In this document: positions 10,543-46,808 of the stretch, piece by piece
How the letters are laid out: each line of letters starts with the position of its first letter
How positions within the stretch are numbered: the first letter of the stretch is position 1
Program-made: the position numbers and the translations under genes
Source: Ogataea parapolymorpha DL-1
Taxonomy: Eukaryota; Ascomycota; Pichiomycetes; Pichiales; Pichiaceae
Direction: 5' to 3'
Assembly: GCF_000187245.1 (NCBI RefSeq)
Contig: NC_027865.1
Location: 496,001-560,000, forward strand
DNA: 64,000 nucleotides
Notes under the pieces: generated by a model
Told to the model about the DNA's origin: nothing
What the model saw: only the letters and a program-made list of their open reading frames with translations
The model's database searches: none

Positions 10543-11261
10543 CTACTCTTCCTCGCTTATTTCATCATCCAGCCCCTCCAGCGCCTCGTCAAACTCCCTG
10601 TCGAACTCGAGATCTTCCTCGGAGACTGCCGATTTCGGCGGATCGCGGTTTTCGGACTCTCGCTGTTTGGTCTCCGAAAAAGGCTCTTGCGATTTCGAGA
10701 GCCTCGACGAACGAGCAGGTACATTTCTTGTAGATGGTTCTCTTTTTTGCCTCGACTTGGCCAACGATTGAGCCGAGAGGGGACGTGACCGTGGTGTAGT
10801 GGCTGGTTTCCTAATCTTAGAAGCCTGCTCTTTTCTCGCCTCGCCACGGGCATGCTGGCTCAACAGCGTCTTCATCCGCTGCTGTAGCTTCTCAGGCTCC
10901 CGCGACTTGCTCATTTTCACCACAGAGTCCAATCTTTCGAGACTAAACTCGCCTGCCGTCTCATTGTAGATCAACACATGATCCGAGTGTCCGTGGCCAG
11001 CGGGCGGCCTTTTGCCTTCGAAAAACAGCTTGGACACACCGTCCTTGGCCGATGACTCCAGAATATACTCATCGTTATAGTTCAAAAGCGTCGATTCGCC
11101 GCTTGAGTCCAGAGTATCTGGACGAAAAGTGTCTACGATTAGCACAAACGCAAGCACCCATACTTACATCTGATTCCAAAAAAGCGCCGCAAGTCAGCGT
11201 CTCCAAGAGCCTGGCCGACCCGCAGGTCGTACTCGCCGTCTGGAATTTCGCAATCGTCCAT
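10543..11261 (-). CDS. ELL-associated factor (EAF) homologue, two exons
   Basis: The coding sequence joins exon 1 (11261-11168) to exon 2 (11132-10543), 227 residues, across a 35-nt intron. Exon 1 reads MDDCEIPDGEYDLRVGQALG and ends before the join that gives FFGIRYTFRPDTLDSSGEST. The join restores the hallmark of the EAF domain, where animal EAF1/EAF2 read TIRYDFKPASIDTS. The domain continues with a YNDEYILE-like strand and HVLIYNETAGEFSLERLDSVVKMSKSR, again matching the conserved HDTGEFVLEKL segment. The C-terminus is basic and serine-rich, ending in an acidic tail (EEDLEFDREFDEALEGLDDE). EAF proteins bind the Pol II elongation factor ELL; S. pombe has the pair, S. cerevisiae does not. Without splicing, exon 1 meets a stop within the intron. 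The neighbouring minus-strand genes are DOC1 (56 bp upstream) and MSC7. Confidence 0.85.
11133..11167 (-). other. 35-nt intron in the EAF gene
   Basis: On the minus strand the intron starts GTAAGTATGG at 11167 and ends CTAATCGTAG at 11133. It has a consensus 5' splice site, a CTAAT branch site and an acceptor three bases after the branch pentamer. Removing it joins phase-1 exons and restores the conserved IRYxF motif of the EAF domain, which is strong protein-level support. Confidence 0.85.
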
Positions 11262-11303
11262 TCTCCTAGCAATGTCAGAGATATATTAAATTTGGTGTGG
11301 GGA

Positions 11304-11311
11304 TTATATAA
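11304..11311 (-). promoter_or_regulatory. TATA element upstream of EAF
   Basis: TTATATAA (palindromic) lies 43 bp upstream of the EAF start codon, in the 56-bp gap between EAF and DOC1. The EAF promoter must overlap the 3' part of DOC1, as the gap is too short to hold more. Confidence 0.35.
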
Positions 11312-11317
11312 GCGAGA

Positions 11318-12010
11318 TCAGCGAATGGTGCTTTCGCTGAGCATTTTTATGCTGGTGAACCCGACGCCGAGCGAGCTGTCGATGTCGGAACGCATGGCGT
11401 TCTCCGAAAGCGGGCTGAACACCTTGATTGAGCGCACATGCGAGTCTTTCCCGTTCTGATGGTTGGAGAGAAAGCATATTTTTATGAGGTAGCATTTGAG
11501 CAGGTTATCGCTCCGAACACCTTTGAAGAATATATGTTGCCAGCCAGAAGGCTCGAAAAACTCTTTGGATGATACCTCCATCAAATCGTGTTCGCCCGAT
11601 CCTGCCAGCACGAGGATTTTAGATGGCGTGTACGACTCGTCCAGCTGGTAATTAAAGTAGAAGGAGAGTCTTTGCACAGTCACTCGTTTTGTAAAATGTA
11701 TAGTGATGAAGTGTGGCTGCTGGCCATCGGACTGCCAGTAGCTGAACGGCGAATCTTCGCGCAGCTCCTTGATCCCGTAGCCCTGTTTGTACGTCGAGAC
11801 CCCCCACGCGGCAAGATTACCGATGTCAATCAGTCCCAGATGTTCGAGCTTGCGTATTCCTGTGGTGAACAATTCCTCCTCGTCGGACTTGGCCGCGTTA
11901 TTGAAGTGGCCGCCTGTTTCGTAGTCGGAGCCGTGCACAGAGTCCTCCTCAAAATGCTCGTCCTCAGACTCGTGCACGGGGTGCACAGAGCTGTCCGAGA
12001 AACGCGACAT
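11318..12010 (-). CDS. DOC1: Anaphase-promoting complex subunit Doc1/Apc10
   Basis: A 230-residue protein. After an acidic, disordered N-terminus (1-55) comes the DOC (APC10) jelly-roll domain. It contains IGNLAAWGVSTYKQGYGIKELREDSPFSYWQSDGQQPHFI-type sequence, where conserved W-S-S-x-K-x-G-x-G and YWQSDG(x)QPH motifs define the family. The continuation HFTKRVTVQRLSFYFNYQLDESYTPSKILVLAG is the next conserved strand pair. Doc1 forms the D-box co-receptor with Cdc20/Cdh1 on the APC/C and promotes processive ubiquitination. The C-terminal ESTIR resembles an IR tail, the feature by which Apc10 docks on a TPR subunit (Cdc27). The start ATG is 30 bp after the stop of the Rab gene. Confidence 0.95.
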   Translation of the reverse strand: MSRFSDSSVHPVHESEDEHFEEDSVHGSDYETGGHFNNAAKSDEEELFTTGIRKLEHLGLIDIGNLAAWGVSTYKQGYGIKELREDSPFSYWQSDGQQPHFITIHFTKRVTVQRLSFYFNYQLDESYTPSKILVLAGSGEHDLMEVSSKEFFEPSGWQHIFFKGVRSDNLLKCYLIKICFLSNHQNGKDSHVRSIKVFSPLSENAMRSDIDSSLGVGFTSIKMLSESTIR

Positions 12011-12040
12011 GGGAACAAAATGTTTATTCAGCTTTTTAAT

Positions 12041-12658
12041 CTAGCAGCAGGAGTATTTTTTTCTGGGCAGTGCCAGATCGATCTGGTCGAACGCAAAATC
12101 AATCGGCTCGAAGTGCAGCAGGATCTCGTGGCCGATTTCCGCGCACTGCTGGAATACACGCTCCACGTCCTGGTATCGGCGCGCCGATGTCTCTAAAACG
12201 TCCGTTTTCACGTCGCCGATTAGTCCTGCCGGCAGACTCTGTGCAAACTCTACAGCCTGCCGTCGCGAGATCTGCTGCAGAGCGTGCTGGTCGGTCTTGT
12301 TGCCCACGATCAGAATCCGGAGCCGCGGGTTGTTGCAATGCTCCAGGATCTTGTCGAGCCACCGCCGAAGACTGTAAAAAGACTGCGCGTTGGTCACGTC
12401 GTAGACCAAAATAGCGATTTCAGCGCCGCGGTAGAACGCTCGCGTCATGGCGTTGAACCTTTCTTGTCCCGCCGTGTCCCAGATCTGCAACTGCAGCTGG
12501 TCTCCAGCCCTGGTTTTGACGGCATGCGACAGGAAATTCGCACCAATAGTGGCCCGGTAGCTGCTAGCAAAATACCGCTGCACAAACTGCGCGCGGATAG
12601 ACGTCTTGCCAACGCCTTGGTCTCCTAGAAGAACCACCTTGAGAGACCTTTCGGCCAT
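12041..12658 (-). CDS. Rab-family small GTPase, Rab7/Ypt7-like
   Basis: A Rab GTPase of 205 residues (208 if the in-frame ATG at 12667 is used). All nucleotide motifs are present: GDQGVGKTS (P-loop), the ATIGANF effector loop, WDTAGQERF (switch II with the catalytic Gln), NKTD and ETSA. The effector loop ATIGANFLSHAV is closest to that of Rab7/Ypt7 (ATIGADFLTKEV), pointing to late endosome or vacuole traffic. The C-terminus ends SCC, a geranylgeranylation signal. The rest of the sequence is fairly divergent (for example NCSNPRLRILIV-type spacing and an unusual glutamine-rich G4-G5 segment), so it may be a second Rab7-like protein and not the main Ypt7. Confidence 0.85.
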   Translation of the reverse strand: MAERSLKVVLLGDQGVGKTSIRAQFVQRYFASSYRATIGANFLSHAVKTRAGDQLQLQIWDTAGQERFNAMTRAFYRGAEIAILVYDVTNAQSFYSLRRWLDKILEHCNNPRLRILIVGNKTDQHALQQISRRQAVEFAQSLPAGLIGDVKTDVLETSARRYQDVERVFQQCAEIGHEILLHFEPIDFAFDQIDLALPRKKYSCC

Positions 12659-12756
12659 GGCATACAAGAAAGTGAGTATTTTTTACGACAAAAACCGTCG
12701 ATCGACGCGTCCATTTTATTATCATCCGTTATTTTCTACAAAACGCTCTAAATCTA

Positions 12757-13716
12757 TCATTCCAGCGAAGAAAGGAAGTGCTCGGCTTCGAGAGCAGCCA
12801 TGCAGCCGGTTCCTGCAGAGGTGATGGCCTGTCTGTAAACTTTATCTTGGACATCACCAGCGGCAAAGACACCAGGGATGGATGTCTGGGCAGTTCCCGG
12901 CTTGGTCTTAATGTATCCGGTCTCATCGGTGTCAAGCTGGTTCTCAAAAATCTTGGTGGCTGGAGTGTGTCCGATAGCGTAGAACAGACCGTTCACAGCC
13001 AGAGTGGACTCCTCGTTAGTCTTGACATTCTTGATCTTAAGACCGTTCAAAAGCTTGCCGTCTCCCACAGCCTCGAGCGAAACGGTGTTGAACAGGATTT
13101 CGAGCTTTTCGTTGTTCTGCACACGCTTCTGCATGATCGTCGAAGCTCTCAAGTGGTCCTTTCTCACAAGCAGGTACACCTTGGACCCGTACTTGGTCAA
13201 GAACAATGCCTCCTCACAGGCAGAGTCTCCACCTCCAACAACAGCCAAAGGCTTGTTTCTGAAGATAGGAACTGCACCGTCGCAAACAGCACAGGCAGAG
13301 ATACCCTGTTGCCAGTAGGTCTCTTCTCCTGGCAGATGGAGTCTCTTGGCAGAGGCACCGGTGGCAATCACAACGGCGTCGGTGGTGATTGGCTCAGCGT
13401 CCTCGTTGAACTCGGTCCACAGTTTGAACGGCCTCGAAGAGAAGTCAACCTTGGAAATGGTCTCTGTAATGATTTCGGTGCCGAATCTCTCCGACTGAGC
13501 TCTCATTTGCTCCATCAGCTTGCTGCCATTGATGCCCTCTGGAAATCCTGGGAAATTCTCAATGTCGGTGGTGGTGGTCAGTTGTCCTCCAGCAGCGATA
13601 CCGTTGGCCATCATACCTTCGTACAACACCGGCTTCATTTCTGCACGAGCTAGATAGATGGCAGCGGTGTGGGCTGCTGGGCCAGAGCCAATGATTGTCA
13701 CTTTGTTATGAACCAT
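12757..13716 (-). CDS. TRR1: Thioredoxin reductase (cytosolic form; longer in-frame start at 13773)
   Basis: A 319-residue low-molecular-weight NADPH-thioredoxin reductase. It reduces thioredoxin through an FAD and a redox-active disulfide. Visible motifs are the FAD-binding [19 protein letters not shown], the CAVC redox pair near residue 142, the NADPH-binding [15 protein letters not shown] and the C-terminal FAD motif [24 protein letters not shown]. The frame stays open upstream with ATGs at 13773 and 13827. Starting at 13773 adds [19 protein letters not shown], a positively charged, acid-free leader that looks like a mitochondrial presequence. Kluyveromyces lactis TRR1 is known to make both mitochondrial and cytosolic enzymes from one gene. 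The 319-residue form equals S. cerevisiae Trr1 in length. Confidence 0.97.
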
Positions 13717-13968
13717 TCTTGTTTGCTTGATAAATTGAAAGGATGTATTTAACCGTCTAAGAGAAAGGAACATGCAATACCTTAAATACTTTTCATGTAT
13801 TTCAAATATTTGTAATCCGCGAAACATCTAGATCGGTGGCGGGGCGTGGCGGTGCAAGATTTTATCGGATGGCCCAGAGCACTCTATCAAATGATGTATT
13901 AGGTAATATTACAAACGTCTGTGGCCAGCACCGTTGCATGCGTAATGGGGATGTACTGGCTGGCCCCA

Positions 13969-14445
13969 TCAGTTTTCGCTAATCAATTTTTTGCCCAGAA
14001 CAAACTCCTTCACCTCTTTTCGACAGCAGATGGCTGGATTCAAAACCACGCTGCTCAGCCAGTATTCCAGAGATTTGCGACGACTCTCCAGAAACGCAGG
14101 ATCGAATCTGTCCTGAAACAGGCCGGATCGTGGAGGAAACTTGGGCAGTTCCGTTTTTCCCGTGTACTTTTCGAGCTTGTTTCTCAGCTCGTCAAAATCG
14201 TTATATCGTTTGCGGATCTTGAACCGAGCACCTCGCACCGTCTCGAACTCGATTGTCCACAACGCATACTTCCCTCCGTTTATTCCTTGAATTATTGTTG
14301 GCTCTGCAATCGTACAGTTTGCGCACCAGACCGAATCGCTAGCAAACAGCTGCTCGTTGGAGTTGTTTTGCAGTGTAATTGGATGAGGCACCAATTTTGT
14401 CAGTTCGCCCAAATTCTGGTCCAAATGAGTGTGCTCATCTGACAT
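13969..14445 (-). CDS. YPT35: Ypt35-like PX-domain protein (Vps13 adaptor)
   Basis: A 158-residue protein consisting of a short N-terminal tail (1-45) and a PX domain. The domain shows the phosphoinositide-binding pattern: ARFKIRKRYNDFDELRNKLE (the R-R-Y-x-D-F motif), a proline-rich loop ELPKFPPRSG and R-R-K-S-LEYWL with the second basic residue. Ypt35 is an endosomal PI3P-binding adaptor that recruits the lipid transfer protein Vps13. The tail contains LVPHPITL (about residues 18-25), a possible PxP motif of the kind by which adaptors bind Vps13. The frame is open up to 14730, but that extension overlaps the divergent NDUFAF2 gene and is not conserved in look, so I start at the ATG at 14445. 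Confidence 0.82.
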   Translation of the reverse strand: MSDEHTHLDQNLGELTKLVPHPITLQNNSNEQLFASDSVWCANCTIAEPTIIQGINGGKYALWTIEFETVRGARFKIRKRYNDFDELRNKLEKYTGKTELPKFPPRSGLFQDRFDPAFLESRRKSLEYWLSSVVLNPAICCRKEVKEFVLGKKLISEN

Positions 14446-14499
14446 GCCAAACTGATAAGTTAAAAAAAATAATTTGGGGTAAATTATTTCCATTTCACG
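14446..14499. promoter_or_regulatory. 54-bp divergent intergenic region of YPT35 and NDUFAF2
   Basis: Only 54 bp separate the two start codons. The segment is AT-rich with a run of eight A residues and TAATTTGGGGTAAATTA. It must contain both 5' leaders, or the promoters must extend into the opposing coding regions. The alternative is that one start lies further downstream. Confidence 0.5.
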
Positions 14500-14922
14500 A
14501 TGGATCAAATCAACAAATTGATACCCTTGTGGAAACAATTGTATTATAAATGGAAGTCTCTGAGAACAATTCCATTGAGAAAGAAGTTCTTCGTTGGTTA
14601 CGATCTGACCGGGAATACGTATTGGGAGTTCTTTGTCGAGCGCAAAAAGGGCATTCGACCCCGCAGACTTTACCAGCCATATAAACCGCAGGAATTCATT
14701 GTCGATTACTACGAAAACATCCCTGTCCAATGGCTGCAGTGGCTTAGATATACACGGCTAAGGCCACCCTCGCTGGAGGAATTGGTCGAGGATAAAATGA
14801 GAATAGAGAGAATTCAACAACTCGCCCAGCTCAAAGACCAACAGCTACATTATAAAGAGCTACAGAAGGACGAGGCCATAGGAAGAAGCATGGAAAAGGC
14901 GTTGAGAAACATTAAAAAATAA
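14500..14922 (+). CDS. Complex I assembly factor NDUFAF2 (mimitin/N7BML-like)
   Basis: A 140-residue protein of the NDUFA12/NDUFAF2 family. The diagnostic segment reads FVGYDLTGNTYWEFFVERKKGIRPRRLYQ (human NDUFAF2: VGTDQFGNKYYYIPQ...RERRIV). It is followed by DYYENIPVQWLQWLRYTRLRPPSLEEL, which matches the conserved IPxEWxxWLRxTRxxPPTxEE block. The C-terminal charged, presumably helical tail and lack of the NDUFA12 C-terminal proline region favour the assembly factor over the structural subunit. NDUFAF2 occupies the NDUFA12 position in a late assembly intermediate in the mitochondrial matrix. Its presence argues for a functional complex I in this yeast. Confidence 0.85.
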   Translation: MDQINKLIPLWKQLYYKWKSLRTIPLRKKFFVGYDLTGNTYWEFFVERKKGIRPRRLYQPYKPQEFIVDYYENIPVQWLQWLRYTRLRPPSLEELVEDKMRIERIQQLAQLKDQQLHYKELQKDEAIGRSMEKALRNIKK

Positions 14923-14930
14923 TACATCGG

Positions 14931-17591
14931 CTATACATTCTCCAAGTTCTCCTTGTCGCGCTCCTTTCTAAGTGCATCCACCAGCTTGTTGACCAACACT
15001 GAGCCATACTGATCCAGGAGATTTTCGTCATGGCCAGGAAGCAGTTTCATGGTGTTGTTCATTTGAACGCGCATACGGTCGGCCACAGAAGGGTCGATCT
15101 CGTCCTCGTCAAGGAGTCTCGCTTGCAGCCTGCGCAAGTCCATCACGATCTTGTCGGCTATGTCTGATGCAGATTCGGGCTTGGGCTTGTCCAGTCTCAT
15201 CCCGGCCAAACGAGAGCGTACGTTGGAAGTGGGTGAGACATCTGAGCGCGAGGAGGCGGAGCGAGCTTGTTTGGCGGAGCACACAGAGGGAGTGCGGGTG
15301 AAAGTTGGCGAGTCGTTGGCTGATAGCTTGGCAGCAGGCAGCACTGTGGAAGGCGATTTGGACGGTTTGTTCTGAACGCTGGGTTTCATAGGGGTCAGAT
15401 CCGGTCTGGAAACAATCTTCCTCACAACCTTAGGCGGCGACACAAGATCTTGAGTGTTGCTGGATGTAAGCGGCGATGAAAACAGCGAGTCAGAGCCCGA
15501 GATCCCACTGCCGAGCGTCCAGCTGAACATGCATCCGTCGTGGCTTGCAGTCATAACAGTTTTCGAATTGCTGTCAAATAGCAAACCGATGATTGTCTCG
15601 GAATGGCCCCATTGGGAGCTCAGCAATTTTCCATCTTTGAACTGAAATAAACGGATACATTTGTCAGGAGACGAGGTGAACATCAGGCCATCGTGAATCT
15701 CGAAGTTGTCCACCTGAAGTGGGTCAAAATTCTTGTTGAACAGTTTCATGGACCTGAGATATTCAAATGTGGTCAGGCTGTAAATAATTATGTTTTTGTC
15801 ATTTGTGGCAACAACCAGCTCCTCAGGGGTGACACCAAACGTCATAGCTGAAGTCTTGATAGAGATGATTTTCTCCTGAACAAGAACAGGGCCTTCATCC
15901 TTGATTTCAAGCTTGTGGACAGAAAGAGTGCGGTCAGATGACAATGCAATAAGCATATTTTTTGTAAATAGCATCTTAATAACATTTCCTTTGTGGACAG
16001 TCAGGGTTTGGAACAATGCCCAGCCGTCTGACCCTTTCTTCATGAATAACTGAATGGTTCTGTCGCGGGAACAGGATGCGGCAAATGCATACTCCGCTAT
16101 CGTGAACATTACGATGTCATTGATGCTGGACTCATGGGCACGCACTCTTATTGATTCTCTGTACCCTTTGATGAAGTCTTCTCTTTTTTGCAGGAAGACC
16201 AGGGTGCCAAACCTATCACCTAGTACAAGATCCTGACTGCTGCAATCTAAAGCGCTCAGCGCATTATCAAGCAAGTCTCCAGGAGGCAGAGTGATAGAAT
16301 GAAGCAAGACAAACTCTTTATTTTCCAACCGTTTCACTATACCATCTTTGGTCCAGAGAAGTATTTCACCGTTGAAACAGCGCTTCAATCCGTTCAGTTT
16401 CGAAGCCAGCGAGCTGATCAAAACTTTTGGACTTCCTGTCTCCAACAAGTCCACGTAAAGAATTTGTTCGTCTTGCAGATATACCAGGGTCTTGAAATCG
16501 AACAACGGTTGCAATGCCATTATTCCCGACCGCTTGACAATTTTGGTTGGTGAACTTGGAGTTGGACGGATGGTATCATTGATAGGAGCGGTAAACACCT
16601 CGTTCAAGGGTATAATGTTGAGCTCCTTGCCGCCTATTATCACGTCCTCGTGGATATGGTCGATTTTGAACTGATTGGTGTCTGATGGCAATTGGTATAT
16701 TTTGCGGAGAACAATGGACTCGTCGTCCAAGTTAATGATTCCGAGATCGCCTTGATCAGACATCACAATGAGCTCCGAGAAGTTGAGACAGTCAATGTCA
16801 ATGAAGTTCGAATTGAGGAAGTTCTTCAACAGCACATTTCTTCCCTTTAAAATAGTGCCCGCCCGGGCCACATCCTCTCTCCAGACCTTAATGTGGCGCA
16901 GTCCGATGGTGATGATATGGTCATCGTGCCAGAATAGCTTGTTGACGATCGAGGAGCACTTGTTACTTCCCCTGAACACAAAGCGTTTATTAGTGAACTT
17001 CCACACGATCAAGAACCCGTCATTCACCAATCCCAGCGAGCACAGCCTTTTAGAGTCTGTGGAGAAACAAAGCGAGTTGATTCCAAACTGGTGTTCCTGA
17101 ATGATGTAACTTGGACGGCACGAACAGTTTCTTGCAAGAGAATACACCAGGATCCGCGGCTGATAGCCAACTTCTCCCACAGCAAGCAGCTTCTTATCGG
17201 GAGAAATGGCAATGCAGTTGATAGACCTCACTTTGTTGGCCAGAGGGGACGAACCGGTATCGTCAGACTTGCGTATCTTGAGAGTTCGGGCGCTAGGAGA
17301 CTCGTACAGATTATCTCTTGACTCCTCAGCGGTCAGAGAGCCATCACGGGAAATCAGTTCCGGGTCTCCACCAAGCGGAAACCCGTACTCATCGACTTTG
17401 CTTGTTTTTGGTGCTACCAGCACATTATTGGCACAAAAGAACTTCTGCCACTGTACCTTCAATTCTTTGTCGACTTTGCACACCACAACGCCGCCGCTGG
17501 CAGTGTACGCAATATAATCATCCTGCGCAACAAATTGGGCTGGAGTCTCGGACGACGTGCCGTATATTTTTTCTATGGTGAGCTCGCTCAT
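14931..17591 (-). CDS. WD40 repeat protein of the WDR62/MAPKBP1 type
   Basis: An 886-residue protein made of two tandem WD40 propellers (about 1-720) and a disordered serine/proline tail with a helical C-terminus (about 800-886). The N-terminal block, with a HELP-like start (LTIEKIYGTSS), VRSINCIAISPDKKLLAVGEVGYQPRILVYSL, a HQFGINSLCFSTDSKRLCSLGLVNDGFLIVW repeat and NKLFWHDDHIITIGLRHIKVW, follows the order seen in the MAPKBP1/WDR62 family and related EML proteins. The animal members are spindle-pole and JNK scaffold proteins; there is no clear S. cerevisiae counterpart. Its function here is unknown. It ends 8 bp after the NDUFAF2 stop, on the opposite strand, a very tight convergent pair. Confidence 0.75.
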   Translation of the reverse strand: MSELTIEKIYGTSSETPAQFVAQDDYIAYTASGGVVVCKVDKELKVQWQKFFCANNVLVAPKTSKVDEYGFPLGGDPELISRDGSLTAEESRDNLYESPSARTLKIRKSDDTGSSPLANKVRSINCIAISPDKKLLAVGEVGYQPRILVYSLARNCSCRPSYIIQEHQFGINSLCFSTDSKRLCSLGLVNDGFLIVWKFTNKRFVFRGSNKCSSIVNKLFWHDDHIITIGLRHIKVWREDVARAGTILKGRNVLLKNFLNSNFIDIDCLNFSELIVMSDQGDLGIINLDDESIVLRKIYQLPSDTNQFKIDHIHEDVIIGGKELNIIPLNEVFTAPINDTIRPTPSSPTKIVKRSGIMALQPLFDFKTLVYLQDEQILYVDLLETGSPKVLISSLASKLNGLKRCFNGEILLWTKDGIVKRLENKEFVLLHSITLPPGDLLDNALSALDCSSQDLVLGDRFGTLVFLQKREDFIKGYRESIRVRAHESSINDIVMFTIAEYAFAASCSRDRTIQLFMKKGSDGWALFQTLTVHKGNVIKMLFTKNMLIALSSDRTLSVHKLEIKDEGPVLVQEKIISIKTSAMTFGVTPEELVVATNDKNIIIYSLTTFEYLRSMKLFNKNFDPLQVDNFEIHDGLMFTSSPDKCIRLFQFKDGKLLSSQWGHSETIIGLLFDSNSKTVMTASHDGCMFSWTLGSGISGSDSLFSSPLTSSNTQDLVSPPKVVRKIVSRPDLTPMKPSVQNKPSKSPSTVLPAAKLSANDSPTFTRTPSVCSAKQARSASSRSDVSPTSNVRSRLAGMRLDKPKPESASDIADKIVMDLRRLQARLLDEDEIDPSVADRMRVQMNNTMKLLPGHDENLLDQYGSVLVNKLVDALRKERDKENLENV

Positions 17592-17653
17592 GATAGATCA
17601 ACAATTGTTTATATTTTTTTATTTTTATTTACCCTTACATAAGCTACGCGTCG

Positions 17654-19306: not shown

Positions 19307-19590
19307 GGTTAAGGAAAACAAGGTTAACAACTGTACACCAGAGCCTAAAAAAATTCCAATAAACATTTATCAGAAAACAAAACAAAAGACATAGAGATAT
19401 TATCTCTAAAACTGGAAAGGTACGCAGCTGGACTCAAGCACCAAAACAATTGGGCGTAAAAGACAGACATTCAAATAGAAATTGTTCTTACTTTTTCCAA
19501 TTGTGTTTTCCGGAGTGAGCTGTGTATAAAAAGGTGTCAAATAACTGTCAAAGTTGTTCAATAGTTGGATGGTATAAGAAATAGCAATCA
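19307..19590 (+). promoter_or_regulatory. MUS81 3' region and MNN2-like promoter with TATA box
   Basis: 284 bp without a convincing gene. TATAAAAAG at 19525-19533 lies 66 bp before the MNN2-like ATG. A short open frame on the minus strand (to 19406) lacks an ATG and was not called. Confidence 0.45.
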
Positions 19591-21339: not shown

Positions 21340-21365
21340 TAGAAGCCAGTCATAATTCAGATACG

Positions 21366-22205: not shown

Positions 22206-22355
22206 GAGCGGTTCAATTGATAATATTCTCGGTAAATCACAAATAAAATGGTTTGAGGTGTATTTAGAATTACATATGGTTCTCAACGTTAGTGCTACAC
22301 TGACTCTATCTGCGATACATGTTCTCCGCCTAACTTACTCCTTACATACTAACGC

Positions 22356-30052: not shown

Positions 30053-30071
30053 AAATTAGGGACCCTTTCTT

Positions 30072-34218: not shown

Positions 34219-34348
34219 TGCAAAACAAAGTTGGACACTTGAACAGAAAAATAAAAATACACCCTGGATCCAGAAATAGACATACACCCTTGCACAGAAC
34301 GAGTGGAATCAAATATTTTTAGGGAATAACTACTTTTACCCCTCAAAT

Positions 34349-34665
34349 ATGGCAGGTAAGTCCTCATCAGCCACGATCTAATGCCAGTCAAACCGTTTAA
34401 GAAAAGCCCAGACGTCTCGTTCGACGATATCGACTACCGCGACCCATTGGAACTGAAAAAAGCTCAGGAGTCGCTCATGAGAGAGCAGTTCATCAAGGTG
34501 GAGGTGCTCAAGATCGTGAGAAAGGCTCTTGAGAACTGCTTCAGAGTCAACGGCCCCAACGCACACGAGGAGTGCCGCAACCTCGCCAATAGATACTTGG
34601 ACCTGCTGCCAGAGAGTCGCGCACAGGGATTTTTGGGCTACCAGCGCAACGACCCGTCGAAATAG
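34349..34665 (+). CDS. Complex I subunit NDUFB10 (PDSW)-like, probably two exons
   Basis: Joining 34349-34355 to 34388-34665 gives a 94-residue protein starting MAVKPFKKSP. The core YRDPLELKKAQESLMREQFIKVEVLKIVRKALENCFRVNGPNAHEECRNLANRYLDLLPESRAQGFLGYQRND matches fungal NDUFB10, an intermembrane-space-facing accessory subunit of the complex I membrane arm. It has the paired cysteines expected (about 52 and 65). There is no leader, as in the family. If the 32-nt intron is not removed, translation could begin at the ATG at 34381. This would give MPVKPF and the same length, with an upstream mini-ORF whose TAA overlaps that ATG (TAATG). I favour splicing because the intron pattern is shared with EAF and POP8. 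Confidence 0.8.
34356..34387 (+). other. Probable 32-nt intron in the NDUFB10-like gene
   Basis: Starts GTAAGTCC and ends CTAATGCCAG, with the same 5' site and CTAAY-NNN-AG 3' end as the EAF intron. Exon 1 is only 7 nt (ATGGCAG). Protein evidence is weak because spliced and unspliced products differ by one residue. Confidence 0.65.
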
Positions 34666-36321: not shown

Positions 36322-36373
36322 ACGTTAAATTTATATACTGAGAGAAAAAAAATAATTAATTTTAATATAAACA

Positions 36374-38433: not shown

Positions 38434-38630
38434 AGTTGTATTTGATTTTTAATATTTTTCACCGTTTGCGCTATAGCTTGGTGTCGTACACGACCTTCAT
38501 ATCTGAAAAAAATAAAGCAGTACGATAGTGACAAGACAAAAATATTCATCTTGCGCACTGTCTTGCACGGGCCACCTCTTTAATACAAGTTTGGAACACT
38601 TTGAAAAACCACAGACTGTCTTCCATTTGC

Positions 38631-41081
38631 ATGGAAAAAGAGCCGGCCACTGCGGACGATCATCAGAACAAGTTATACACTCCTATGTCAAACCAAGATC
38701 CTGTTGTGGATAAAGTGACAGATATGGATCCCGGGTCTGGATCTGGCCCCGGCACAAACTCGAGCGGCCAATTTGCGTACGAATACCCCAACTGGCGTGA
38801 CAACGGCGAGTTCAACTTCTACACAGACAACAATCTCCAACTTGACATGGGCACACAGCAGCCCTTTGTACATACCTCACAGTCAAACATGATGTCTCCG
38901 GCCAACGTGGGGTCGGTGATCACGCCGGCGTCGCCGGCCGAATACGTGATGCATCTCCAGCAGTACCAAAATATGATGTTGGAACAGGGGATGAAGACAG
39001 AAAACGGGAATAATGCCTCAACGGCTGGCGCGAGCGCGGGCTCTGTGGCTCCTAGCGGGCCACCGGGCTCTGCGAACGGGTCAGGCCAGTTTGTGCCGTT
39101 CATGCCGCCCTTTATGAACCCGCAGGCCCTGATGGGCCAGTACTCCGGCGCCGTGCCAGGGCCCTATCCTATGCAGCCAATGCCAATTCCGTATCCTGTT
39201 CCTGCGAAAAGCGAGCCACCTCAGCCACGCACCAAGGTCAAGCCGTGCGACCACTGTCGGCGGCGCAAAATCAAATGTGTGATGGTGCCGGACTCCAACA
39301 CGTGCAAGATGTGCCAGAATAAGGGGATGAAGTGCACGTTCATAGATGCCAGCACGGGCGGCACAAAACGATCATTTTCGAGCCCGGAAAACGACGCCAA
39401 ACGCCACAAGTTTGAGGATCCATCCATCGTGCCGCCCCCAAACGTGCCGTTGCGCGAAACCCTGCCGATCAAGGACTATGCCACCATGCAGGGCCACTCG
39501 CTGCTGAAAAAAACGCTCAGTCTGCAGTATCCGCGCTCGAGCTTCTACGTGGGGCCCACGTCGATCTACGACAGACTCTTTCTTGAGAACGTTGTTTTGG
39601 ACAAAATCGACCAGTTCCAGCTCAACAAGGCCTACTCGATCCGCAAAGTCGCCAATGACGTCCAGTTCACGCTGCGCGACGATTTCACAGAAGACTTGTA
39701 CGAGAAGTCCGAGTGGGACGTCGACAGCGTCGAACGGTACGTCGCGCCGCACGGCCAGAAACTCATCGATCTTTATTTTCGCACAGTTCACCCGTCGTTT
39801 CCAATATTGCACAAGAAAGTCGTTCTGGAGAAATACTCACGCACGCATCGCGAGTTCGGCGCTCCGCTGCTTGCTGCCCTCTACTGTCTGGCCATCCAAT
39901 GGTGGGATTACGACCCGCACCTGTCGCAGTTCCCTAAACCCAACGTGGTGTCGCTGCACAAGTTTGCGCTCAAGACGTTTTCGGACGTGATTCAAAGACC
40001 CAAGCTGAGTGCCGTTCAGGCCGGCCTGTTGCTGCTTCAGTGCCGCTCGAGCGGGTCGCAGGACAATAACTGGCTGCTGTGTTCACAGGTGGTGGCTTTG
40101 GCAGAGGAACTGGGACTGGGACTGGACTGTGCCAACTGGAGACTCCCGCGCTGGGAACGTGGACTGCGCAAGCGGCTCGCGTGGGCCGTGTACATCCAGG
40201 ACAAGTGGTCGTCGCTCGTGGAGTCGCGGCCGAGCCACATTATCGAAGGTAAGAACTGGCAGGTCCAAATGGTAGCCAGCGAGGATTTTCCCGACAAGGG
40301 CGACGCCGACCAACAAAAAGACGGGTCTGCAGACTACGAGAACGGGGAAGCTCTGTTCCGGCAACTGATCACGCTGAGCCAGATTTTAAGCGAGATTCTG
40401 GACGCCTTCTACACCATGCACAGCATAGAGACGGTGACGACGATCGACGAGGTGCTGAAGCTGGCCAAACCGCTACAGTTAAAACTAAGAAACTGGTACC
40501 ACTCGCTGCCGGAAACGCTGCAGATGAACACGCTCAAGCCGCGGAAATTCAACTCGAACGGCTACTTGCAACTGGCATACTTTGCGACGGAAATTACCCT
40601 GCACCGTCGTATCATTTCCGCTCTCCACGCCCAGAAAGACGGGTGTCAGCCAGAGCTGGTGCGTGTTTGTCGCTCGGCTGCCCAGGCGCGTCTGACGGCG
40701 TCGATCGAGTTCACCCGCAACCTGAAGCCCGAACACATCCAGTCGTTCTGGCAGTCGGCAGCAGTTAACAACTTCGCTCTGATAGGCATTTTTGCTACCA
40801 TTTTGTACGTCACCAGCGACTCCACAGAGGAAGCCAACGGTTTCAAACAGCAGCTTTTCGACTACCGGTGGATTCTCAAGATCAACAGCAAGAGCTTCGA
40901 TATAGCAGGCGAGGCGCTCTCGAAGATCGACGGATTGATCAAAAATATACCTGGCCTGATGGGCGACTATAAAGACCCATCCACAGCAGTCCCTGTGGAG
41001 ACAGAGGTGGACGGCGAGTCGCAGTCGGAGACGTCCCAAAGCGAACGGAGCGACAGAGCCGCCGAACAGAGCGACAAATAG
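38631..41081 (+). CDS. DAL81: Zn(II)2Cys6 transcription factor Dal81/Uga35
   Basis: An 816-residue transcription factor. A Zn(II)2Cys6 cluster at about 204-238 reads PCDHCRRRKIKCVMV followed by CKMCQNKGMKCTF, with all six cysteines. The fungal-specific regulatory domain begins with TSIYDRLFLENVVLDKIDQFQLNKAYSIRKVANDVQF and HPSFPILHKKVVLEKYSRTHREFGAPLLAALYCLAIQWWDY, followed by WERGLRKRLAWAVYIQDKWSSLVESRPSHI. This pattern fits Dal81, a general co-activator of GABA, urea, allantoin and amino-acid sensing (SPS) genes with a zinc cluster that is partly dispensable in S. cerevisiae. The frame is open upstream without an ATG, so the first ATG at 38631 is used. Confidence 0.9.
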   Translation: MEKEPATADDHQNKLYTPMSNQDPVVDKVTDMDPGSGSGPGTNSSGQFAYEYPNWRDNGEFNFYTDNNLQLDMGTQQPFVHTSQSNMMSPANVGSVITPASPAEYVMHLQQYQNMMLEQGMKTENGNNASTAGASAGSVAPSGPPGSANGSGQFVPFMPPFMNPQALMGQYSGAVPGPYPMQPMPIPYPVPAKSEPPQPRTKVKPCDHCRRRKIKCVMVPDSNTCKMCQNKGMKCTFIDASTGGTKRSFSSPENDAKRHKFEDPSIVPPPNVPLRETLPIKDYATMQGHSLLKKTLSLQYPRSSFYVGPTSIYDRLFLENVVLDKIDQFQLNKAYSIRKVANDVQFTLRDDFTEDLYEKSEWDVDSVERYVAPHGQKLIDLYFRTVHPSFPILHKKVVLEKYSRTHREFGAPLLAALYCLAIQWWDYDPHLSQFPKPNVVSLHKFALKTFSDVIQRPKLSAVQAGLLLLQCRSSGSQDNNWLLCSQVVALAEELGLGLDCANWRLPRWERGLRKRLAWAVYIQDKWSSLVESRPSHIIEGKNWQVQMVASEDFPDKGDADQQKDGSADYENGEALFRQLITLSQILSEILDAFYTMHSIETVTTIDEVLKLAKPLQLKLRNWYHSLPETLQMNTLKPRKFNSNGYLQLAYFATEITLHRRIISALHAQKDGCQPELVRVCRSAAQARLTASIEFTRNLKPEHIQSFWQSAAVNNFALIGIFATILYVTSDSTEEANGFKQQLFDYRWILKINSKSFDIAGEALSKIDGLIKNIPGLMGDYKDPSTAVPVETEVDGESQSETSQSERSDRAAEQSDK

Positions 41082-41155
41082 CATGCGAGGCCTTATAAAC
41101 GTTCCCATGTACATTAACATCCGGCTAAATAAGTATCATAAATTATCTAGTAGCT

Positions 41156-41632
41156 TCATAAGAAACTCTTCACCTCCACGTCCTCCTTTTTCTCCTGAAC
41201 AGGCTTCTTGGTTCCGCGAATTCCCGTGAACTCGCTCTTCGGAAGCCCAAAATACTCAAACCGCTCGTTCAGAACAGCCAGCTCGCTTTCCACGTCCTCA
41301 ACGCGCATTTTTCCTTTTTTGAGCTCCTCGATGATGTGCTCGAACTTCTTGAACCGCTGCTGATAATTATCGTTCATCTCCTCAATATAATTCTTTTCTC
41401 TCATTATGTTTAGCACGGACGATCCCGCCAATGTGATTAGAAACATCTGCCAGACAGTCATTCGCAACGACCGTCTTGTCAGGGCCTTCTTGAGCTCGCT
41501 CTCCTCCTTGGACTCGTCTTGTTTCTGGTTGGGGTCTGGCTGGTGGCCCATCTGCTGGAAGTACGCGGCCGACGGGCGCTGGATCGGCGAGGTGCTGTAG
41601 CGGCGAATAGCGGGTAAACAGGCGCGGATCAT
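41156..41632 (-). CDS. Mitochondrial inner-membrane coiled-coil protein, Ina17-like
   Basis: A 158-residue protein with a mitochondrial leader (MIRACLPAIRRYSTSPIQRP) cut probably after about residue 13-15. It has one membrane helix at about 59-78 (WQMFLITLAGSSVLNIM) and a C-terminal coiled coil (about 80-130, FKKFEHIIEELKKGKMRVEDVESELAVLNERF). This layout, and the KGKMRVEDVESEL segment, resemble Ina17, a subunit of the INAC complex that helps assemble the F1Fo ATP synthase peripheral stalk. I recognise the layout better than the sequence, so the name is tentative. It is convergent with DAL81 (74 bp between stops). Confidence 0.55.
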   Translation of the reverse strand: MIRACLPAIRRYSTSPIQRPSAAYFQQMGHQPDPNQKQDESKEESELKKALTRRSLRMTVWQMFLITLAGSSVLNIMREKNYIEEMNDNYQQRFKKFEHIIEELKKGKMRVEDVESELAVLNERFEYFGLPKSEFTGIRGTKKPVQEKKEDVEVKSFL

Positions 41633-41713
41633 ACTGAATAATTTTAATTAACTCTTCACATTTATACATTTTTCAGAATCTTTTTTGCGCGATCGATTAC
41701 ATAAGCGCACCGG

Positions 41714-44700
41714 TTACCGCTCCTCGTCAAGGAAGTCGTCGATCTCACGCGCATCGTCGTCGTTGGCGTTCACGTCGAACAGCGACTCGTCCTCGTCGTC
41801 GATAATGCGGTCGTTGAACGACGCAAACCGCTCGTAGTTGTCGAGGCCGCCCCTTCTGAAGCGCGAAAAAAAGCCGTTTTTCAGGAAACTCGAGAGCCGG
41901 TGCTGTAATGCCACCACGGCGCTCACAAACACAAGACCACCCCTCACGACCTTATTCACGGCACGGTCCACAGGCGTCTCCTCAATCAGGTGCAATTCCT
42001 CGTCCTCGTCGAGACGGATCTCTCCAAACCTCGAAAAACCTCCATTACGACGGATTCCTCTGTCGTAAACGAAGGTGGCCGCCCCCACAAACGCGGCAAT
42101 CGGCGCGAAAATCACCCAGAAAAGGCCCGCCCCGTGCAGTCCCGCGCCGTACTTGTCCTTGTACTGCTCTTTCTTGCCCGGACATGGATGAGAAATCCAT
42201 TTGTCCAGCTCTAGTCCCTGCTCGCAGGTGCTCATTGGAATTTTTCGGTATCCGGTCGGCTCCCAGTACTCGACCTGGTCCTCGTCCAGCTGGCAATATT
42301 CTGTTGGGTCCACTGGTTTCAGGCCCTTGATCAGCTGGCACGTGCCGTCGGCGGCCAGCACAAAGTTGTAGTCGCACTCAAAGTCGTGACGCGTGCATTT
42401 GCAGTTTTTGGTCTTCTTGTACAGCTTGTTCAGCGGCGCAGCACCAACAAAACAGTCCGACTGTGACGCCTTGCGCCTTGGATATCTGGCCTCGTGGCCA
42501 AACAGACAGTTGTCCGACTGGTGCGGGTGTTTAGGCGACCAGTACTCGTAGTCCGTAAAATCGGTCAGCTCGTTCTCGTCGTTCACCATCAGCTCACATT
42601 GTCGCTGCTGGAGGCCGGCAAAGTTCAGATTGTATATCTCGTCGCGGCCTCTTTCGTCCTTAGCCAGCAGGATGAACTTACGGGACGTGTCAGAGGGAAC
42701 CGTTGCAATGTCCCAGACGTTCCTTGGAGACTCTGCAAACTCGTAATCCTGCCAAGTCTCGCCCTCGTCAAGAGAGTACGACACGGTGTTTGTGAGCCCC
42801 TGCTTGACCAGCACAAGAATTGTACCCTGGTCGCCAAACTCCCACATATAATTGCCCTTCTTGACTTCTTTCCATGTTGCTCCCGCGTCGTTCGAGAAGA
42901 AAGTGGCCGTTTCCGGCGAACTGTACGGTAGCAGTGCCGTGCCGACGTTTCCAACTCCAAAAAGCAGCCCCACGGCCGAGGCCGACGAATAAGTGTCTCT
43001 CGAGGGATCGTTTCTTTCGGTAAACGAGTGCAAATTCAGCGTGCATTCCTTCTTGCCGCTGCACTTATACTTGTTGCCTTCAGAATCCACAGGCGGCGGA
43101 ACCAGATAATCCCACTCTGCGCCGTCATTGTACGTGATCATGGTCTTGACAGCCTTCTCGTCGCCATTGCGCACCACGTCATCGTAGTTGGCCACAACGT
43201 TGACCGTGGCTATTCCCTCCAAACTCTGCACGCTCTCAAAGTCCACAAACGCAAACTCGTTGCGGTTCACATGGGACAGCGACTGCACATACTGCGTGCC
43301 GTTGTAGTTCGATTTCAATAGCGCACCAAACTCGCGCTGCGAGGCCGAGTGCGTGGTCACGTGCAGGAAAATCTGGTCGGAGTTCACGTCCAAAATCGTG
43401 TAGGCTGTCTGTCTGGTGACCATGATGTCCTTGGGGAACATGGCCTCGGCAAAAATCTTGCCGTCGGCAGAAACAAACGCAGTCAGCGAGTTGTCGTCGT
43501 CCAGCCGTGCAACCACCAGGAATTTGCCTGTCTGTGCAAACCCAATGATCCTGTCAAACAGCGTTTTGATGTCCTTTTGGAAGTAGTCTGTGCTGGAGAT
43601 TAGCCGCAAAGCCTGGCGGTCGTCGGTGAACTGGTCGCACACAATCAGTGTCTCGTTGACGGCGTACTCCTTGTCGTTGAACAGAGAGCCGACATAGTTG
43701 CACGTGTTGGCGTCGGCCACCAGACGCTCGAACGATTCGCCGTGGTTTTGGGTGTGATACGTCTCCACCACACAGTTGCTGGAAAACAGATTCGCACAGC
43801 TCCGTTCGGCACGCACAATAAACTCTGAGGCATTGTGTTTGTTGAAAGTCAGCGAGAGCTTCTCGAACTCGTGGCCCCTGACGGGCAGAGTGCGCTCATA
43901 GACCGAGACTCCTCTGTCAGGCGAGAAAAAGAGCGCGTCGGCGTCGGTCAAAATGTAGACATGGTCTGCTTTGTAAGGGTTGCTGTAAACGCCAGTGACA
44001 ATGTGCTGGCCGTTCAGGAACTTGCCAAACGAAGAGCCTCCGTCAAACGAGATGTACAGAACCTTGTTCTCGGTGAGCACAAAAAGTGTCTCGTCTGGAA
44101 GACCGTCTGAGTCGTAGGTGAGATAGAAATACTCGGCAATTCTCTCGCCCAGCGGAATGTGCGTAACTTTCACAGGATCCGTCATGTTCTGCAAATCATT
44201 CTCACAGTCAAAAGTGAAGTCGTCTTCCTCTATTTCGTAGCCGCCCTCTGGATCACACGTGTCGCCCGGTATCATCTGTCTCGTTGTAATTTTGATCATA
44301 CCCTTCTGGTCGGCGCACTGATTCGCAGCTAACACCTCCAGAACCGGCTCACAGACATCATTCTCGCCTTTGATGAAGCCGAATGTGCACTCAGTATCGT
44401 CAATCGTGCACTTGCAAGGCTCCTCGATAACTTTGAGGTCCTCGTACGGATGGTTCACAAAACAGTCCGCGTTTTGCTTCCGTCTTCTGAACTTCTCCGT
44501 GTGTCCCAAAACACAGACTGGAGAGTCGCTGTCCGGGAGCACTCTGGCGTACCAGTCCTCAAAATCGTCTTCAGAACACGTTCTTTCAAACGCTCCAGTG
44601 AAGTCTATGGCATACAGAAAAATCTTGGAAAGCGAGGAATCCTCTCCCGTGACAAGAACCTGCTGCGTGCTGCCATCCAGAGACGTGAAAACATCGAGCG

Positions 44701-46252
44701 GCAGTATATGATCGCCAAATTCCGCCTCTTCCCAGGAGTCGCCTTGGTCAAGAGAGTACAGGAACGTGTTTGGAAGAGTACTAGGGTCCAGCCGCACGTC
44801 CAACAGATGCGACATGTCGATCTGAATGGCAACGATGATGTTTCCGAGGTCGGCAAACGTGAACACCGCAGACCCGTCAACGACTTTTTTCCACGTCACA
44901 CCGTTGTCTCTGGAAATGTACGTATTGAGTTCGTTGAGGTCAGATGTCAGGTACTTGCCGACGTTTCCTATTCCAACGAGAATCCCCGGAGTGGGGCCAG
45001 TAGCGAACTTCCCGTTTGTGTTTCTGATCGTGGTCCACATCAAATTGAGCGAGCACTCGGAATCCCCGTCGCAGTCATCGTCATCGGTAGTTCTAAGATA
45101 ATGCCATGTCTTTCCGTCGTCAATCGAGATTTTGGACTTAGCCAGCGGGGACGCGCTATCGTCGTCCGCGTTTTCGTGGCTCAGCAATAGAATAACTCCC
45201 TCCACTTCCTGCACCATCGTGATGTCCGACAATCCTAGCCCGTTTGTCAAAACATTCTCGTGGATCTTGTCAAAGAACAGCCCAGACGAGTCCGACTTGT
45301 ACAAATCTGCATCCAGTGCAGCATTTTTTGGCTGACGCTGGCCCTGAATGGCAATGTAGAGCGACTGCGGCGTGGAGGGCAATATTCTGAACATCCACGA
45401 TTTGAGCTGGTCCTCGAAATAAGCCCGTCTGAACGTTTCTCCGTCCTTAGAAATAAATAGTATGATCTCGGCATCAGGAGTGTACTTGTCAACAGAAACA
45501 GTGGCAATAATGAATGACTGGACCACCCGGATCGACACAAGATTCATCCTGTCGAACTCTGCAGACGGTGAAGATACGGTCTTGAAGAAATCGTTTGTGG
45601 TCAGAAGTCCACCTTTTTTGTCGATACCCGCCTGGTCTCCGTCCACTTTGGAACATATAATCTTCTCGTCCGGTCCTGCCGTAAACGCTTTGTTGCTCTT
45701 TGCGAAAATACAGTAGTCCAAGCCGTCGTGATCCACTTTTTTAGGAGGCGTTTTCAGACCATCGTTGCTGAAAAACCAGTTTTTTTTGCATTCAAATAGA
45801 AATTGTTCGCTCGCCGCACAGTCCTCGAAATTGAAAAGGATATAGTCGTGGTTGGCATAGTTGACCTGAACATTACCCAAGCTGAATTTGTTGCCACTGT
45901 GGTCGACCTCAAAAGGAGTCCAAGTTTTTCCGCGATCGCGGGTGTAGAACTGGGTTTTGGACGTAGATAGAGCAAATCCCAGCTCTTTGGCATAGTCCAC
46001 GGTGTGAACACTCGTTAAATTGACCTCTTGCCCAGCAGAATTTTTGAGATCCACCTTTTTCCAGTTTTTGGCATTGTCTTCCGATATATACAGGCTGTTG
46101 TCCTCTATGATAAGCACCACAGACGAGTCGTCAAAGTACGTGAGGTCGTGGCCCGCGCTGAACTCTTTTCTCGACACTGCTGGCTTCCAGTCCGCAGCCC
46201 CTACAAGACTCACAAGAGCCAGAACGGGAAACAGCAACGTTGACCACTTCAT
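41714..46252 (-). CDS. VPS10: Vacuolar protein sorting receptor Vps10
   Basis: A 1512-residue type I membrane receptor that carries carboxypeptidase Y-type cargo from the late Golgi to the endosome and is returned by retromer. The signal peptide is MKWSTLLFPVLALVSLVGA; I start at 46252, the ATG of this leader, not at the in-frame ATG at 46279. Two tandem Vps10 domains (about 20-660 and 690-1350) each hold Asp-box repeats such as SEDNAKNW, SRDNGVTWKK, SNDAGATWKE and SLDEGETW, and cysteine-rich 10CC modules. One membrane helix lies near 1385-1405 (ALFWVIFAPIAAFVGAATF-like). The cytosolic tail has YERF and an acidic C-terminus, a possible tyrosine-based retrieval signal. Length is close to S. 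cerevisiae Vps10 (1579). Confidence 0.97.
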   Translation of the reverse strand: MKWSTLLFPVLALVSLVGAADWKPAVSRKEFSAGHDLTYFDDSSVVLIIEDNSLYISEDNAKNWKKVDLKNSAGQEVNLTSVHTVDYAKELGFALSTSKTQFYTRDRGKTWTPFEVDHSGNKFSLGNVQVNYANHDYILFNFEDCAASEQFLFECKKNWFFSNDGLKTPPKKVDHDGLDYCIFAKSNKAFTAGPDEKIICSKVDGDQAGIDKKGGLLTTNDFFKTVSSPSAEFDRMNLVSIRVVQSFIIATVSVDKYTPDAEIILFISKDGETFRRAYFEDQLKSWMFRILPSTPQSLYIAIQGQRQPKNAALDADLYKSDSSGLFFDKIHENVLTNGLGLSDITMVQEVEGVILLLSHENADDDSASPLAKSKISIDDGKTWHYLRTTDDDDCDGDSECSLNLMWTTIRNTNGKFATGPTPGILVGIGNVGKYLTSDLNELNTYISRDNGVTWKKVVDGSAVFTFADLGNIIVAIQIDMSHLLDVRLDPSTLPNTFLYSLDQGDSWEEAEFGDHILPLDVFTSLDGSTQQVLVTGEDSSLSKIFLYAIDFTGAFERTCSEDDFEDWYARVLPDSDSPVCVLGHTEKFRRRKQNADCFVNHPYEDLKVIEEPCKCTIDDTECTFGFIKGENDVCEPVLEVLAANQCADQKGMIKITTRQMIPGDTCDPEGGYEIEEDDFTFDCENDLQNMTDPVKVTHIPLGERIAEYFYLTYDSDGLPDETLFVLTENKVLYISFDGGSSFGKFLNGQHIVTGVYSNPYKADHVYILTDADALFFSPDRGVSVYERTLPVRGHEFEKLSLTFNKHNASEFIVRAERSCANLFSSNCVVETYHTQNHGESFERLVADANTCNYVGSLFNDKEYAVNETLIVCDQFTDDRQALRLISSTDYFQKDIKTLFDRIIGFAQTGKFLVVARLDDDNSLTAFVSADGKIFAEAMFPKDIMVTRQTAYTILDVNSDQIFLHVTTHSASQREFGALLKSNYNGTQYVQSLSHVNRNEFAFVDFESVQSLEGIATVNVVANYDDVVRNGDEKAVKTMITYNDGAEWDYLVPPPVDSEGNKYKCSGKKECTLNLHSFTERNDPSRDTYSSASAVGLLFGVGNVGTALLPYSSPETATFFSNDAGATWKEVKKGNYMWEFGDQGTILVLVKQGLTNTVSYSLDEGETWQDYEFAESPRNVWDIATVPSDTSRKFILLAKDERGRDEIYNLNFAGLQQRQCELMVNDENELTDFTDYEYWSPKHPHQSDNCLFGHEARYPRRKASQSDCFVGAAPLNKLYKKTKNCKCTRHDFECDYNFVLAADGTCQLIKGLKPVDPTEYCQLDEDQVEYWEPTGYRKIPMSTCEQGLELDKWISHPCPGKKEQYKDKYGAGLHGAGLFWVIFAPIAAFVGAATFVYDRGIRRNGGFSRFGEIRLDEDEELHLIEETPVDRAVNKVVRGGLVFVSAVVALQHRLSSFLKNGFFSRFRRGGLDNYERFASFNDRIIDDEDESLFDVNANDDDAREIDDFLDEER

Positions 46253-46402
46253 TCTAAAATATGGCAATGGTCTTCCCAAGCAAGTTTGAGCGTAATTGGT
46301 TGGCGTAGACCCAAAATGAAAGTGCTCCTAATAAGTGCTTAAATTTAGGACTTTGCCTTTATTTAGTTTTTTTCTGTGTTCATAACCACCAGCCATAATT
46401 AG

Positions 46403-46808
46403 CTACTCCTCGCACCAGGAGAATCGGTCAGGGCCCGCAATGGCCATGAGGGTAGGCCCTGTGGCGAGAATGTTGAAGAATGCCGTTGATTGGTCGACGT
46501 CTAGGAGCGAGAGGTCTGGCGCATTGGCTGTAAGGGCAGAGGAGAGAAGATGGGTCTCGTCTGCGGGCACCCTAATATAGACGCGCTCGTTCTCTATTTT
46601 AAGGATGTCATAATGCACTGCGGTACCCGTGATACCGTGTAGCTTTGAGAGAGCCTTGTAGATAAGAGATTTCCACGTGATCGCATCCAGAGCAGGTAAT
46701 ATTTCAAGAGAGGGCACGAAACGGCTGCTGTTAGGAAGCAAAGAAGGATACTCACAGTTCTACGAGCAGGTAACTCCATTCGGAGATGAATGAGATTTGT
46801 TTCGACAT
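46403..46808 (-). CDS. POP8: RNase P/MRP subunit Pop8, two exons
   Basis: Joining exon 1 (46808-46756) to exon 2 (46724-46403) gives 124 residues, starting MSKQISFISEWSYLLVEL. The core LDAITWKSLIYKALSKLHGITGTAVHYDILKIENERVYIRVPADETHLLSSAL lines up with S. cerevisiae Pop8 (MTWRQWLNNALKRSYGIFGEGVEYSFL...KLAYIRV), a small protein of nuclear RNase P and RNase MRP that works beside Pop5. S. cerevisiae POP8 also has an intron. Without splicing, exon 1 ends at a TGA within the intron. The 3' splice site is a tandem CAGCAG (NAGNAG), so a 125-residue variant with one extra serine is possible. Confidence 0.85.
46725..46755 (-). other. 31-nt intron in POP8 (28 nt with the alternative acceptor)
   Basis: On the minus strand it begins GTGAGTATCC at 46755 and ends CTAACAGCAG at 46725. 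The 31-nt form has the same CTAAY-NNN-AG 3' end as the EAF and NDUFB10 introns; the upstream AG at 46728 would give 28 nt. Both keep the frame. Confidence 0.8.

Follow-up and report, generated by a model that had tools for sequence, protein, structure and literature searches.

The window studied here is a 64,000-nucleotide (nt) stretch of chromosome 2 of the yeast Ogataea parapolymorpha (Hansenula polymorpha) DL-1 (C2:496001-560000). Three of its genes, EAF, NDUFB10 and POP8, each contain a short GT–AG segment, of 35, 32 and 31 nt, respectively, at positions that were rechecked and are numbered below from the first letter of the window. A reading of the window from its letters alone (the sequence-only reading) had proposed that the segments are introns of a class with one fixed 3′ architecture. 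All three do begin with GTRAGT and end with CTAAY-NNN-AG, and the U2-type order (GT–AG ends and a 5′ splice site, then a CTAAY branch site) is found in each. Compared with the rest of the genome, these small segments look typical of the introns of this yeast, not special.

10543..11132, minus strand: EAF exon 2, running to the stop codon
11133..11167, minus strand: predicted EAF intron, 35 nt, GTAAGT...CTAAT-CGT-AG, branch A at nucleotide 29
11168..11261, minus strand: EAF exon 1, 94 nt, from the ATG to the 5′ splice site
34349..34355, plus strand: NDUFB10 exon 1 if spliced, ATGGCAG
34356..34387, plus strand: probable NDUFB10 intron, 32 nt following ATGGCAG, GTAAGT...CTAAT-GCC-AG, branch A at nucleotide 26
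34388..34665, plus strand: NDUFB10 exon 2, to the stop codon; PF10249 at 25.5 bits (cut-off 22.2)
46403..46724, minus strand: POP8 exon 2, running to the stop codon
46725..46755, minus strand: predicted POP8 intron, 31 nt, GTGAGT...CTAAC-AGC-AG, branch A at nucleotide 25, tandem acceptor
46756..46808, minus strand: POP8 exon 1, 53 nt, MSKQISFISEWSYLLVE plus two bases

Short segments in EAF, POP8 and NDUFB10

We infer splicing at these sites from the reading frames and protein domains that removal of the segments produces. The EAF and POP8 segments are almost certainly genuine introns on this evidence, and the claim that splicing regains conserved protein in both genes held, with Pfam domains joined across the junctions. 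EAF and POP8 are convincing, whereas NDUFB10 is weaker and can be read without splicing.

Spliced EAF encodes 227 amino acids (aa) and matches PF09816 (EAF) at 64.3 bits over residues 11–111, with the junction near residue 31. A Pfam scan of the 40-aa read-through product gave no match. The spliced protein is 100% identical over all 227 aa to the annotated O. parapolymorpha DL-1 protein HPODL_04811, and the EAF intron is thus already part of the public annotation. In O. haglerorum and O. angusta, the EAF entries (P0006 and P0007) differ from the DL-1 protein around the intron, with the domain partly replaced or missing. Such disagreement of EAF models between Ogataea species is a warning that tiny introns can mislead gene annotation.

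In POP8, reading through exon 1 reaches a stop after 18 aa, and the unspliced downstream frame has no ATG and matches PF20976 (Pop8) over profile positions 18–72 only (65.5 bits). Splicing to the outer AG gives a 124-aa protein that covers profile positions 1–72 at 71.8 bits. Exons 1 and 2 align jointly with the solved S. cerevisiae Pop8 chain 6agb_H (E 3e-7, query residues 9–84). The protein match P0001 was rejected as support for the spliced model because it is a read-through frame. Two acceptors are present in the sequence CTAAC-AG/CAG, an inner AG directly at the branch motif and an outer AG three bases on. Use of the inner AG would remove a 28-nt intron, keep the frame and add one serine (125 aa, 71.6 bits). 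Since the two products score almost the same, homology cannot pick the acceptor and either AG is possible.

The O. philodendri POP8 entry contains MSQITSITSEWQYLLVEL followed by additional residues. When a 40-residue stretch of this entry was searched for introns with four 5′ splice sites, gaps of 3–7 bases and lengths divisible by three, its codons fitted one solution only: a 36-nt intron with a gap of 3, at the same position and in the same phase. Its removal leaves 15 of 22 residues around the junction identical. O. philodendri POP8 would accordingly carry an intron at the same place, as judged from protein and not from DNA.

The NDUFB10 segment is a probable intron, given its signals and reading frame. 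Counting against this, the gene is also readable unspliced, and the product begins MPVKPF in place of the spliced MAVKPF, one residue apart. If the gene is intronless, translation would start at the ATG at 34381 inside CTAATGCCAG, and ATGGCAGGTAAG... would be a short frame upstream that the overlapping TAA closes. This arrangement appears rather unlikely. In its favour, MPVKPF... forms an open unspliced frame with the same Pfam score (25.5 bits), and the O. polymorpha entry P0010 likewise starts with MPVKPF. The segment nevertheless fits the intron signals and usual intron length of the genome, and an MA start is found in four of seven aligned non-Ogataea homologues (P0011, P0013, P0018 and P0020), a difference that concerns a single residue.

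Hereafter, the gap denotes the number of bases between the CTAAY branch motif and the AG. Second-order Markov simulations (n = 40 for each region) were searched for GTRAGT and CTAAY with a gap of 3–5 and a length of 30–47 nt. In the window, 3 such candidates occur where the simulations average 0.1 (maximum 1); in C2:1-200000, 9 occur where they average 0.275 (maximum 2). That the three segments arose as chance matches or frameshift errors, or are coding sequence that stays in the mRNA, is highly improbable. Chance-like sites do exist: the window holds four more GTRAGT...CTAAY...AG sites with other gaps or lengths (17–24, 35, 48 and 57 nt), three within long open frames and one without a spliced frame, and the 48-nt in-frame match at C2:506166-506213, just beyond the searched length range, looks like chance. 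Against such an origin stand the excess over simulation, the Pfam domains joined over junctions in unrelated genes and the independent annotation of the spliced EAF protein.

The 264 kb read directly (the window and C2:1-200000) yielded 12 candidates with a gap of 3–5 and a length of 30–47 nt. Gene names that go beyond the Pfam family are our own reading. All 11 spliced proteins that were scanned exceeded the Pfam cut-off, and they represent EAF, Pop8, NDUFB10, ubiquitin plus UCH, septin, Tctex-1, VHS, DSS1/SEM1, ribosomal S24e, clathrin adaptor small chain and ubiquitin-conjugating enzyme families. The domain spans the junction in six of them (EAF, Pop8, SEM1, clathrin adaptor small chain, ubiquitin-conjugating enzyme and VHS). 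The VHS frame holds only if two neighbouring introns are removed too; its domain covers residues 13–153, and the three junctions fall at residues 18, 48 and 73. The twelfth candidate (C2:173358), outside the Pfam scan, belongs to a small cysteine-rich protein with two residues only after the junction. For SEM1, splicing to the gap-0 AG yields a product of 27.9 bits, under the cut-off, whereas the gap-4 AG yields one of 65.6 bits; by this protein-level comparison, SEM1 shows a gap-0 AG being skipped. Among the first ten gap-3 loci of the genome-wide search, six have a Pfam-supported spliced protein, with the domain across the junction in three (zinc cluster, Urm1 and ankyrin). The other four comprise two loci in one gene without a Pfam match, one unscanned locus and one without a sensible gene.

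Genome-wide population of short introns

Patterns were counted over 8,874,589 bases in 7 contigs, with the reversed pattern as a control. The predicted excess of introns of about 31–35 nt was borne out, with 91 gap-3 matches compared with 25 of the reversed pattern, and so was the predicted length peak, as 72 of the 91 are 30–36 nt long. GTAAGT is the 5′ splice site in 76 of the 91 gap-3 matches and GTGAGT in 15. Gap 4 (110 against 31) and gap 5 (90 against 31) are enriched as well. Gaps 0–2 are not enriched genome-wide (60 against 77); 33 of these 60 matches have a 5′ splice site in common with a listed gap 3–5 match and 27 do not. AGC stands between CTAAY and AG in 8 of the 91 gap-3 matches, which makes them tandem acceptors with an AG touching the branch motif. 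With GTATGT as the 5′ splice site, 73 rows were obtained against 90 reversed (rows not collapsed), and several of them appear real.

The preferred gap is narrow, as in yeasts with a constrained branch-to-AG distance, and lies at 3–5. The fixed 3′ architecture of the sequence-only reading did not survive the counts, since gaps 3, 4 and 5 are about equally frequent, which rules out a fixed three-base gap genome-wide. It is accordingly very improbable that introns with an exact three-base gap form a special class that is processed unlike other introns. All three window introns do have a gap of 3 (POP8 only via its outer AG), but the three gaps are similarly common among 80 distinct 5′ splice sites too (22, 22 and 18 for gaps 3, 4 and 5, together 62, with gap-0 AGs passed over by hand). 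Moreover, branch-A positions overlap between the gaps (medians of nucleotides 27, 28 and 30 for gaps 3, 4 and 5 among the matches listed), and the searched 5′ splice site is identical.

Length and branch statistics rest on 281 listed matches (91 of 91 for gap 3, 100 of 110 for gap 4 and 90 of 90 for gap 5). Their median length is 35 nt, a value that holds inside the 21–53 nt that the gap 3–5 patterns admit, and 230 of the 281 measure 30–41 nt. Among the same listed matches, the branch A lies at nucleotides 24–33 in 222 and at nucleotides 15–23 in 9; not one of the 91 gap-3 matches has it at nucleotides 16–23. A sharp lower limit for the branch A is seen at nucleotide 24. At wider spacings, GTRAGT and CTAAC 36–66 bases apart with a gap of 0–9 give 45 matches against 158 reversed. 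The short introns are thus the main population detected by these patterns, and the idea of a distinct intron class finds no support. A spacing of 67–97 bases with a gap of 3–5 gives 31 matches against 62 reversed.

From these data, the segments are very probably ordinary U2-type introns, with many introns of this yeast reduced to an apparent size limit of the spliceosome. Several observations weigh against this interpretation. The reversed pattern cannot serve as a neutral background, as it beats the forward count at spacings of both 36–66 and 67–97 bases; because it does so at long spacings, the gap 3–5 excess is if anything understated. Among the 82 gap-3 matches of 28–40 nt, 24 have a length divisible by three, so a retained intron need not shift the frame. 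The published intron length is also larger. TopHat usually applies a minimum intron of 70 nt. The published annotation reports 457 intron-containing genes from models guided by RNA sequencing, with a mean intron length of 65 nt and TopHat among the tools (Ravin 2013, PMC3866509). This mean implies either that longer introns are missed by our patterns or that short ones are under-annotated. The mean of 65 nt and our pattern-limited median of 35 nt need not conflict, because introns that are longer or carry other signals escape the search. An intron length distribution for Ogataea was not found in the literature searched, supplements aside, and earlier reports of short introns are possible.

Introns carrying box C/D small nucleolar RNAs

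The spacing class of 67–97 bases has a second content. Among the 27 of 31 matches that were fetched, six contain Rfam box C/D small nucleolar RNAs (snoRNAs): snR77, snR47, snR75 and snR79 exceed the gathering score, whereas snR71 and snR56 fall short of it. In a seventh, a box C/D pair is recognizable from its motifs alone. The remaining 20 likely include chance matches and fused neighbouring introns. In total, eight snoRNA introns of 89–110 nt (loci L041–L043, L045, L050, L051, L058 and L067) were delineated, six by Rfam and two by motif only.

C2:730414-730519, snoRNA intron
C2:730702-730803, snoRNA intron
C2:779306-779415, snoRNA intron
C2:731057-731146, snoRNA intron
C3:1126363-1126451, snoRNA intron
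C5:151041-151130, snoRNA intron
C6:1382404-1382513, snoRNA intron
C4:987692-987789, snoRNA intron

Locus L067 (C2:729700-732300) is a cluster that contains, in order, snR78, snR77, snR76, snR75, a SNORD27-like RNA and snR73, two of the six below the gathering score. snR77 and snR75 sit between intron signals, and another box C/D intron, identified by motif only, follows downstream. Intronic snoRNA clusters of this kind are reported from Candida and filamentous fungi (PMC5033589). The Rfam search of the window and C2:1-200000 gave 0 matches at the gathering score.

The snoRNAs fill their introns closely. The six Rfam matches begin 5–10 nt past the first G and stop 1–8 nt before CTAAC. In seven of the eight snoRNA introns, positions 6–8 pair with the three bases preceding CTAAC and extend the partial complementarity of GTAAGT to the branch site. 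Of the 20 other loci of this spacing class, 1 shows the same pairing, as do 7 of 79 short introns (the snoRNA introns differ from the latter with Fisher p 4e-6). The predicted mean stem probability is 0.77 for the snoRNA introns, 0.07 for the other loci of the class and 0.18 for short introns; for snR77 and snR75 it is 0.00 and 0.39. An extended pairing of the 5′ splice site with the branch region was rejected as a general trait of short introns: at intron positions 6–9 of 144 introns of 28–50 nt, with some of the longest and shortest gap-3 sequences omitted, 251 of 576 cells pair against a shuffled mean of 270, which is slightly below chance.

C/D snoRNAs normally carry a closing stem. An intron of this yeast might, as a tentative proposal that we hold at somewhat below even chances, consist of splice signals plus cargo. 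Empty introns would then come to rest at the floor (branch A at least at nucleotide 24), and in introns with a flush snoRNA the near-complementary 5′ splice site (for example GTAAGTAC) and branch region (for example GTACTAAC) would form its closing stem. If so, bases that initially serve in splicing would later form the snoRNA ends, and the snoRNA-carrying introns suggest a second, structural use of splice signals. The overlap of signals and stem may also follow merely from compaction.

Splicing machinery and comparison with known introns

Loss of Slu7 or Prp18 might accompany close acceptors. This was ruled out, as both genes were found (Slu7 at 42.7 bits, cut-off 27.9; Prp18 at 123.7 bits, cut-off 32.5). 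U2AF1 is encoded by an open frame in C3:596300-597500 (L039), whose best matches are the S. pombe U2AF23 chains 7c08_A and 4yh8_A (E ~1e-50). The gene reads as a single open frame with no intron; in most Saccharomycetaceae that retain it, an intron is reported to split the first zinc finger (PMC4202332). U2AF1 has been suggested to go with a short branch-to-acceptor distance (PMC5499181, PMC4202332), a causal link that PMC4202332 calls unproven, and its retention here fits this suggestion. We read a Methyltransf_10 protein (148 bits) as a putative METTL16; members of this family are found in bacteria too (5 of 14 control genomes). Together with the A at +4, the putative METTL16 fits the association described in PMC10581693.

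The spliceosome looks conventional as judged from these genes. In the mechanism that we propose, GTRAGT, CTAAY and an AG 3–5 bases on would be read by standard budding-yeast machinery with U2AF1, Slu7 and Prp18. A minimal reach from the 5′ splice site to the branch A would set a steric floor, bases above this floor would have been lost, and U2AF1 would help to choose the close AG.

The sequence-only reading had called both the length and the branch-to-AG distance extreme for a budding yeast. The length is indeed unusual; the distance is within the known range and is shorter in Yarrowia. In the data of Irimia and Roy (2008, PMC2483917), the distance is 2 nt in Yarrowia, 3 in C. guilliermondii, 4–5 in C. 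lusitaniae, 6–8 in E. gossypii and 7–8 in D. hansenii, and the Ogataea gap of 3–5 thus lies inside this range. The Ogataea introns resemble the constrained introns of those yeasts in their strong CTAAC and an AG a few bases on, at the same distances as in C. guilliermondii and C. lusitaniae, and differ in a gap that is spread over 3–5 and in a detected length of about 35 nt.

Yarrowia has the clearest constraint but long introns (median 204, PMC2483917). Y. lipolytica and Ogataea are alike in a branch site near the AG, and 72.5% of Yarrowia introns are reported to have one nucleotide between the branch motif and the three-base acceptor motif, which equals a gap of 2 (PMC13309789). This preference is absent from Ogataea, as the counts at gaps 0–2 demonstrate. 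The introns of Geotrichum candidum have been called unusually short at a median of 71 (PMC4479816), compared with the pattern-limited median of Ogataea.

With many introns at the lower size limit, O. parapolymorpha, a free-living yeast amenable to genetics, allows what sets the minimal spliceosomal intron to be tested base by base. Within its own family, the Pichiaceae, P. kudriavzevii offers a comparison. Its branch-to-acceptor distance is described as longer than that of S. cerevisiae. Encephalitozoon cuniculi is a microsporidian parasite with few introns, unlike the Ogataea yeast with its many annotated intron-containing genes. Its short introns have a mean of 35.8 nt and conserved signals (PMC2483917). 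The short-intron kind is already known, and Ogataea is a member at its short end, with a length unusual for a yeast.

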